64,000 bases of DNA from Clostridia bacterium (GTDB lineage: Bacteria > Bacillota > Clostridia > UBA1381): contig JAFQJD010000018.1 in the NCBI GenBank assembly GCA_017415105.1, positions 1 to 64,000 of the forward strand. Reading direction: 5' to 3'. Positions 50,064 to 52,026 of this stretch are shown here, piece after piece. How positions within the stretch are numbered: the stretch's first letter is position 1; every line of letters begins with the position of its first letter. The notes under the pieces were generated by a model that was given only the letters and a program-made list of their open reading frames with translations, made no database searches and had not been told where the DNA came from. The position numbers and the translations under genes are program-made.

Positions 50064-50549
50064 TTGAAAAATCTGGTACTGACTATCGCAAAGACACCGC
50101 TGTTTTTTCTGCGTTGGGCAAATGCGGCAATAATGCGTTTTGTTCCGGCGACTATGATGCTGATTATCATATACAGTGGAATTTATAAGCTGATTTTCAA
50201 TATCAATGTAAGTGAAGCATATGATATTTACACACAACCGTTTCTTACGATTGGTGTTCTGATTTCTATTGTATGGGGATTTTTATTTACCATGACAAAA
50301 CCGCCGGTTTATAAAATTGCGTACATATTCAGAGGTAAACCGGTTTTCGGACGAAGTATTGCAGGCAGAGTTCTAATGGGCTTGCTTTATGCTGTCGCAC
50401 TGCAGTCAAGTGTTCTTTCTGTTCGTCTTTTAGTTCTGTTTTGTCTTGTTGAAACCGTAATAAATATTTTAATACTTAACAGTTCAAAAAAAATGCCGTA
50501 TAACGAAGCACTTGAGAAGGCGTGCTTCGGGGAAAAGGAGGATGAATAA
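50064..50549 (+). CDS. Unknown membrane protein
   Basis: I do not recognise this 161-aa protein. It has about four hydrophobic segments (near residues 8-45, 55-78, 105-122 and 122-140) and a basic loop with RGKPVFGRSIAGR. The start TTG at 50064 follows AAAGGATG by 9 bp; a longer frame reaches back over the promoter and ftsY terminator and is rejected. Its stop overlaps the next start by 1 bp, so the two are translationally coupled. Confidence 0.7.
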   Translation: MKNLVLTIAKTPLFFLRWANAAIMRFVPATMMLIIIYSGIYKLIFNINVSEAYDIYTQPFLTIGVLISIVWGFLFTMTKPPVYKIAYIFRGKPVFGRSIAGRVLMGLLYAVALQSSVLSVRLLVLFCLVETVINILILNSSKKMPYNEALEKACFGEKEDE

Positions 50550-50998
50550 TGGATATACCTGTAAATTCAATTATATTGATAATCTCAGCAGTAATTTTAC
50601 TTGTTGGTATTGCTGCTGTAAGCATAGCAAATAAAATTGCCTATAAAAAATCAAATCTGAAAAAAATGTTGTCGCAATATGAAACACAGAGAAGAGCAAA
50701 AAGCAGTACTCGTTCAAATGTGAGAAACAACTATAATTATTACCGTCCGGATAACGGAGGTTATGACCACGACCAGATGATGCAACAGCAAATGAATGAT
50801 GATTTTAACCGTCAGATGCAGCAACAGATGAACGATGAATTCAACCGTCAGGCGATGGAGCATACTATGAATGAGGGTTGGAAGTCCGTAACACCGTTTG
50901 ACCACGGCGGTTATGTTCAGGGTCCGGGCTTTAATCCGTCCGATACTGCGGCACAACAAATGAATGATATGAACAATATGAATATGGGAATGTTTTAG
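50549..50998 (+). CDS. Single-pass membrane protein with Met/Gln/Asn-rich repeats
   Basis: This 149-aa protein has an N-terminal transmembrane helix (about residues 8-28, IILIISAVILLVGIAAVSIA), then a basic juxtamembrane stretch. A low-complexity tail holds a 12-residue repeat MQQQMNDDFNRQ in two near-identical copies plus a degenerate third. The tail ends with MNDMNNMNMGMF. AAAGGAGG precedes the ATG. I do not recognise a family. Topology with the tail inside or outside cannot be decided. Confidence 0.75.
   Translation: MDIPVNSIILIISAVILLVGIAAVSIANKIAYKKSNLKKMLSQYETQRRAKSSTRSNVRNNYNYYRPDNGGYDHDQMMQQQMNDDFNRQMQQQMNDEFNRQAMEHTMNEGWKSVTPFDHGGYVQGPGFNPSDTAAQQMNDMNNMNMGMF
50780..50851 (+). repeat. 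Two 36-bp direct repeats in a coding sequence
   Basis: Units 50780-50815 and 50816-50851 encode MQQQMNDDFNRQ and MQQQMNDEFNRQ. The DNA copies differ mostly at third codon positions, so the repeat is old and kept at protein level. Confidence 0.8.
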
Positions 50999-51036: not shown

Positions 51037-51065
51037 TTGAAAGATGCAAATTTCTGTGATATAAT
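51037..51065 (+). promoter_or_regulatory. Strong promoter upstream of the SLH-protein leader
   Basis: TTGAAA (51037-51042), 17-bp spacer, TATAAT (51060-51065), with TG at the extended -10 position. The predicted start near 51071 coincides with the first base pairs of the large stem in the leader. Confidence 0.85.
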
Positions 51066-51069
51066 GTAA

Positions 51070-51235
51070 TTGTCACATTATTACATACAAATTTAATACT
51101 AAACATGGGGAAAATACTTGTGTAAAAAGTTTTTTCTCTCTATTTTGCGTATCCGTGTTTGGTATGTATGTAATTGTGTGACAACAATGAGGGAAACGCT
51201 TTTTCGGTGCGTTTCCACACAGGAACGCACTTTTT
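51070..51235 (+). ncRNA. Structured leader or small RNA with attenuator-like end
   Basis: This is most of the 326-bp gap before the SLH gene. The first part folds as a long hairpin. 51070-51088 pairs with 51166-51184 over 19 positions with one mismatch. After a 7-nt bulge, 51096-51108 pairs with 51153-51165 over 13 bp. Downstream, GGAAACGC (51192-51199) can pair with GCGTTTCC (51209-51216). The latter can instead pair with GGAACGCAC (51222-51230), followed by TTTTT, a terminator. The two downstream pairings exclude each other. It could be a cis attenuator of the SLH gene or a free small RNA ending at 51235 (a 6S-like RNA is one option). I found no match to riboswitch consensus sequences I know. 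Confidence 0.65.
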
Positions 51236-51324
51236 AGTTTGGAAAATCCGAAAGGAGGGCAGATACAGAAATTTCAAATTAAAGTGCACAATAACATTAA
51301 ACAAAAGAAACGAGGTAAAAAATT

Positions 51325-52026
51325 ATGAAAAAGAAAATTATTGCAACACTATTGACACTTACAACACTTTTATCGGCAGCACCGGTGCTTGCTTACCCTG
51401 ACTGCACTGATGAAAATGTTATGGCACTTACTGACCTTGGAATTTTAGAGGGTGACGAAAACGGTAATTTTAATCCTAATCAGAATCTCACAAGAGCAGA
51501 GTTTTCAAAGATGATAGCTCCGGCACTGCCAGGATATGAGGAAATAGATGAAATAGAATCAGCACCTCATTTGATTCTTTTTAAGGATATTAGCAATCAT
51601 TGGGGTTTTAAGTACATTGTTTTTTGCCAGAGAAATGGATTGATAGACGGTTTTGATGATGACACATTCCGTCCCGATGAAAGCCTCACATATGCACAGA
51701 CAATTAAAATGTGTCTTTCTGCTATAGGTTACAGCGGATTGGAAAAGGACACAGAGCCGTGGTATAAAAAATGGACTGAAATGGCACACAAGTATGGCTT
51801 GACAGAAACAGAAATAATAAATCCAAATGAATATATAAACCGTATTGATGCGGCAGAGCTTGTGTATAAGACAATACATATGCCGATTTGTAGAATTGAT
51901 GGATATACACAGATTGAAACAGAAGAAGGACCGGTATGGGGACCAACATTTATAATGATGGACGGTACAAACGGAGAGTTTCAATCAATATATACAACAC
52001 GTTTTGCACCAAAAACTGAAAAATAA
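51325..52026 (+). CDS. Small secreted protein of three SLH domains
   Basis: This 233-aa exported protein has a signal peptide (MKKKIIATLLTLTTLLSAAPVLA) and three S-layer homology domains. These lie at about residues 25-75 (LGILEGDENGNFNPNQNLTRAEFSKM), 88-145 (NHWGFKYIVFCQRNGLIDGFDDDTFRPDESLTYAQTIKM) and 150-200 (WTEMAHKYGLTE to RIDAAELVYKTI). SLH domains bind secondary cell-wall polymers. Only about 30 residues follow, so it has no enzymatic partner domain. GAGG lies before the ATG. A second AAAGGAGGG at about 51251-51259 has no start codon at proper distance. Confidence 0.85.
   Translation: MKKKIIATLLTLTTLLSAAPVLAYPDCTDENVMALTDLGILEGDENGNFNPNQNLTRAEFSKMIAPALPGYEEIDEIESAPHLILFKDISNHWGFKYIVFCQRNGLIDGFDDDTFRPDESLTYAQTIKMCLSAIGYSGLEKDTEPWYKKWTEMAHKYGLTETEIINPNEYINRIDAAELVYKTIHMPICRIDGYTQIETEEGPVWGPTFIMMDGTNGEFQSIYTTRFAPKTEK

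Follow-up and report, generated by a model that had tools for sequence, protein, structure and literature searches.

Within the 64,000-nt stretch of Clostridia DNA analysed here (hereafter the window), the RNA unit under study lies on the forward (+) strand, between a gene ending at position 50998 and an SLH gene at 51325–52026, also on this strand. The latter encodes a 233-aa protein with an apparent signal peptide and a PF00395 match in two stretches (E=1e-24), and is the likely regulated gene. The upstream Gln/Met-rich ORF of 149 aa (50549–50998) contains two tandem 36-nt repeats (50779–50850). The promoter of the unit (51037–51065) consists of a −35 box, TTGAAA (51037–51042), and, after a 17-nt spacer, a −10 box, TATAAT (51060–51065), preceded by TG (51057–51058), and matches the consensus at 11 of 12 positions. 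An extended −10 promoter directly ahead of a long stem, with transcription starting exactly at the stem base, had been proposed from the sequence; the placement of the promoter holds, but the usual +1, predicted 7 nt after the −10 box, would fall on G51072, two bases into the stem. At this position, the third of the element, all 147 family copies carry a purine (134 G, 13 A); the −10 box ends 4–5 nt before the stem base in 95 of 112 copies and the TG of the extended −10 is present in 97 of these 112. No promoter-like site was found on the + strand between 51236 and 51325.

The minimum free energy fold forms a stem of 31 bp at 51070–51184, made up of segments of 9 bp (51070–51078/51176–51184), 10 bp (51080–51089/51165–51174) and 12 bp (51097–51108/51153–51164), and interrupted by a U-U mismatch (51079/51175) and a 7-nt bulge on the 5′ side (51090–51096); the mismatch and bulge are as originally predicted, the length of 32 bp is not. 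The basal stem pairs 51070–51089 with 51165–51184, its 3′ strand being assigned by fold and covariation, and the upper stem (P2) pairs 51097–51108 with 51153–51164, assigned by fold and by the strand-exchange test described below. The family equivalent of the bulge carries a conserved AAUA, with column conservation of 0.78, 0.93, 0.94 and 0.90. On top of P2, the 5′ strand of the apical hairpin (5A, 51110–51118) pairs with 51128–51136, part of a longer A strand (51124–51140) that can pair either with 5A or with the tail, a segment downstream of the basal stem (51189–51204). The tail in turn has two alternative partners, the A strand, which would yield a pseudoknot, and strand D, the 5′ arm of the terminator, which yields an antiterminator hairpin (51192–51216; GGAAACGC/GCGTTTCC at 51192–51199/51209–51216). 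The intrinsic terminator (51207–51235) is formed by GTGCGTTTCC/GGAACGCAC at 51207–51216/51222–51230, followed by TTTTT at 51231–51235. The two mutually exclusive hairpins, the last with a T-run, that the original prediction described are thus both present and share a segment; the third competitor for the tail segment, the apical strand, had been missed. The folding z-score against shuffled sequences is −5.7 for 51070–51325 and −7.9 for the stem-loop alone, with no shuffle folding equally well, and the architecture is not a chance fold, because it recurs in more than 100 relatives.

These relatives came from DNA, pattern and covariance-model searches. A DNA search returned a partial relative in a sister species (94% over 110 nt), in a different gene context and interrupted by a contig end, and a paralogue in the window's own genome (L002) differs in stem sequence and is identical in plan. 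An exact apical-loop pattern, run over named genomes, matched 65 loci, nearly all in Clostridia MAGs, with some labelled Monoglobus and one Bacteroides; in the genus, an exact loop pattern had no match and proved too strict. The source organism itself may belong near Monoglobales. A covariance model built from three sequences (R1) recovers the element at nearly all of the 65 loci and, at E≤0.01, matches 65 of 95 genomes of the order, with 17 copies, the maximum detected, in one genome. A second model, built from 14 sequences (R2), finds the element, at E≤1e-4, in 97 of the 391 genomes searched in the class Clostridia, spread over 56 of 222 genera, whereas in a phylum sample of 398 genomes, some Clostridia included, only the window's own genome matched at E≤1e-6. 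Copy numbers in the class and phylum sweeps are lower bounds, because only seven candidates per genome were scored. Many carrier genomes hold several copies; in the window's genome eight pass E≤1e-4, and a further, ninth copy is weak (0.01). At L046, L064, L077, L107, L114, L128, L136, L157, L169 and L183, elements stand in tandem in twos or threes, spaced 207–496 nt.

The original prediction had staked its case on conservation and compensatory changes in relatives, and both were found. In an alignment of 109 distinct sequences, fitted to the basal stem, apical hairpin and terminator, all 14 pairs of the basal stem changed on both sides while 98.2% of its cells remained paired, and in the three fitted helices together 34 of 36 pairs carry double changes with 96.6% of cells paired, as opposed to 16–19 pairs in slid controls. 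The loop-tail (A:tail) helix, absent from the model that produced the alignment, is paired in 92.9% of cells and double-changed in 11 of 14 pairs, against 4–5 in slid controls. Support is weakest for the antiterminator (83.7% paired): its double-change cells number 55 versus 27 in shuffles, and its count of double-change pairs is no higher than in shuffles. In a test less dependent on the alignment, we set duplex energies within each element against those of strands exchanged between elements. Own strands were the better partners in 109 of 109 elements for the terminator (D:D′), 105 each for the apical hairpin (5A:A) and P2, 103 for A:tail, 91 for P2top, a helix between the base of the apical 5′ strand and the 3′ strand of the upper stem, and 88 for the antiterminator (tail:D), with no permutation as low for A:tail, tail:D, 5A:A and D:D′. 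The non-partner combinations 5A:tail (47/109) and A:D (57/109) showed nothing clear, which speaks against relatedness per se as the source of the signal. One control, which set the upper 3′ strand against the core of the apical 5′ strand, was matched by only 2 of 2000 permutations, yet favoured its own strands in just 56 of 109 rows, and the test is therefore not perfectly clean. Own-versus-swapped tests thus support five overlapping helices, namely P2top, the apical hairpin, the loop-tail pseudoknot, the antiterminator and the terminator.

That the family is real and conserved is virtually certain. The RNA is one copy of an uncatalogued family of ~165-nt structured RNAs in gut Clostridia, set apart from the published SLH motif (see below) by description only. 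The Rfam scan that had been suggested as a check, RF00013 included, returned no family: at the curated gathering scores of Rfam 15 the window RNA had no match, and 20 representative loci gave only tRNAs. Sub-threshold scores at the site for Phe_leader (29.1 bits, cut-off 55) and GibS (24.1 bits, cut-off 115) were taken as chance. No description of the family was found in the literature searched, the main texts of largely open-access papers.

Gene placement connects many copies to the gene that follows. A start codon with a ribosome-binding site lies 8–35 nt past the terminator in 61 of 142 copies (43%), compared with 2 of 107 (2%) in the control, start codons in the divergent direction from the promoter, and such spacing leaves no room for a further promoter behind the terminator in those genes. 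No gene starts within 60 nt in 66 of 142 copies whose flank is 120 nt or longer, the window copy included, where the SLH gene begins 89 nt from the terminator. In the window, a strong Shine–Dalgarno-like AAAGGAGG stands at 51252–51259. Its distance from the T-run, about 17 nt, is that at which genes start in many family members, but no ATG, GTG or TTG lies at the usual distance from it; the SLH gene begins roughly 66 nt downstream and has a weaker site. Among proteins starting within 100 nt of a copy, 44 of 92 carry an N-terminal hydrophobic, signal-like segment, as called by a simple rule, versus 50 of 364 other proteins at the same loci (p=2e-11). Domains in 81 scanned downstream proteins, counted as raw tallies and not as enrichments, include BspA-type LRR (18), the copper amine oxidase N-terminal domain (8), dockerin (5) and SLH (3), and no single common function points to an input. 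A small Cys-rich protein family also recurs behind the leader (L074, L076, L078, L106 and L136); the one member scanned had no Pfam match.

An intrinsic terminator between promoter and gene, together with a conserved competing antiterminator, is the arrangement expected of an attenuator leader, and in this family the five helices are conserved and mutually exclusive, the promoter position is fixed and genes are near. Judging from these sequence features, the gene-proximal copies probably act as cis-acting transcription attenuators, and conservation, covariation and gene placement favour this option among those originally put forward. Neighbouring helices among the five compete for a common strand, which divides them into two sets, from which we infer two states: an OFF state with P2top, pseudoknot and terminator, and an ON state with apical hairpin and antiterminator. 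RNA polymerase would initiate at the stem base. For the OFF state we picture an extended upper stem and an A strand released to pair with the tail downstream of the basal stem as a pseudoknot; the antiterminator would be blocked and transcription would stop near 51235. With the A strand held instead in the apical hairpin (ON), the tail would be left free for the 5′ arm of the terminator, and transcription would proceed into the SLH gene. The order in which the helices form during transcription and the direction of control are those suggested by the pairing, and the input that we favour is a small ligand or protein stabilizing one of the two folds. In the window copy, A:tail and tail:D have duplex energies of −9.6 and −14.0 kcal/mol, P2top is weak (−1.6 in the aligned register) and the summed duplex energies of the two helix sets are about equal (−24.1 vs −23.9), a crude estimate that ignores loops and the cost of the pseudoknot. 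The switch is kept equally well in copies without a near gene (p=0.76 and 0.73 for the ON and OFF sums), and may therefore serve something besides the downstream gene.

With transcription-attenuating riboswitches the family has in common a 5′ leader, an alternative antiterminator and terminator, an aptamer-like domain with a pseudoknot and many gene-proximal copies; it differs from them in the five-step chain of overlapping helices, in its own promoter fixed at the stem base and in the many copies without a close gene. We regard it as a candidate class of orphan riboswitches. Riboswitches for c-di-GMP often control surface-protein genes, and the genes behind the present family, too, often encode surface or secreted proteins, but the family has no Rfam match and the window's genome combines eight to nine copies with no GGDEF found. 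PF00990 (GGDEF) was likewise not found in two further carriers of the RNA, G004 (95% complete) and G063 (92%; the window's genome, G000, is 93.9% complete), and c-di-GMP is disfavoured as a general ligand on these grounds. Many relatives have several GGDEF domains. In LoaP-dependent antitermination, a structured leader governs read-through; the present RNA is a structured leader as well, but among 95 genomes of the order none has a protein above the LoaP cut-off, and LoaP is disfavoured as a general factor. The matches to the LoaP model, nearly all one per genome and with a top score of 98.6 bits (cut-off 125), are probably ordinary NusG. The nearest published candidate that we found, compared by text and not by sequence, is the SLH motif riboswitch candidate, with 80 examples, about 60% of them before SLH genes, reported in Clostridia and also in Synergistaceae and Negativicutes (Stav et al., 2019; PMC6429828). 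Both are leaders upstream of SLH-domain genes in Clostridia; judged by the text description only, they differ in reported distribution and in that SLH domains occur in 3 of 81 genes of the present family.

The nearly half of all copies that lack a close gene may be stand-alone RNAs, and this bears on the main competing readings. All copies could be independent small RNAs of ~165 nt, acting in trans or binding a protein, for which the terminator would be a mere 3′ end and gene proximity secondary. The promoter carried by nearly every copy, the tandem arrays of two to three units (spacing 207–496 nt) and four copies in the window's genome, L146–L149, which have no gene of their own and are separated by 78–85 nt from the stop codon of a convergent gene, are in line with this reading; we nonetheless consider it unlikely, given the excess of start codons 8–35 nt behind the terminator (43% vs 2%) and the conserved antiterminator, which a plain small RNA does not need.

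Somewhat less probable still is a mixed family, in which gene-proximal attenuators coexist with stand-alone trans partners whose 3′ extension pairs with the tails of other copies. L146, L147, L148 and L149 share a downstream palindrome, AAGCCTGACC..GGTCAGGCTT, that does not occur in the 64-kb window, and three of the four carry an extension that forms strong pairings with the 3′ halves of fellow copies. For the mixed reading speak the L149 extension, which pairs with L148 (−48.1, z −5.8) and with the L002 leader (−40.0, z −4.9), and the energies of stand-alone extensions against family 3′ halves (−23.8 vs −21.1 kcal/mol shuffled; for comparison, −20.8 vs −20.4 kcal/mol for sequence behind leaders). 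Across ten genomes, stand-alone extensions are more complementary to the family than shuffled sequences, with no clear preference for their own genome; just 9 of 43 best targets belong to the same genome (5.9 expected), and the extension may instead be a decayed copy in opposite orientation. No specific pairing was seen between the downstream extension and its own element. The more specific proposal of an RNA-only regulatory network of surface-protein genes, in which an antisense 3′ extension lets stand-alone copies act in trans on leader tails, is a speculation to which we give slightly less credence again.

The remaining identities fare worse. Dispersed and tandem copies with a terminal inverted repeat recall a MITE-like mobile repeat whose inverted ends resemble a stem, but the stem sequence varies among copies while pairing is kept (with four pair types at one position), promoter and terminator stay in register and the apical pattern has no match on viral contigs, so that this origin is very improbable. 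The exact apical pattern being unmatched in viral contigs, a viral origin was also rejected. A leader-peptide attenuator was discarded, a short ORF with a ribosome-binding site being present in 8 of 147 copies versus 12.3 in shuffled sequences; a looser count, which admitted GTG/TTG starts as well and set no limit on their position in the element, gave 84 of 147 with no shuffled sequences for comparison and was set aside because it also includes starts inside the tail and terminator. The 6S-type RNA that had been entertained at the outset shares a long, promoter-proximal hairpin and a similar length with the window RNA, and can practically be dismissed: RF00013 has no match at the site at the gathering score or even at E≤5, a genuine 6S RNA lies elsewhere in the same genome (C15:9593–9791, L185; 51.7 bits, above the Rfam cut-off), the element occurs in many copies per genome and its fold has no central bubble.

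Taken together, these observations describe an uncatalogued candidate switch RNA, present in 56 of 222 sampled Clostridia genera, many genomes holding from several up to 17 detected copies. Precise mutations can be designed in its loop-tail and antiterminator helices, so that the direction of control and the input are directly testable. If the proposed attenuation is true, these RNAs would constitute a sizeable regulatory layer for surface proteins in mostly uncultured gut bacteria.
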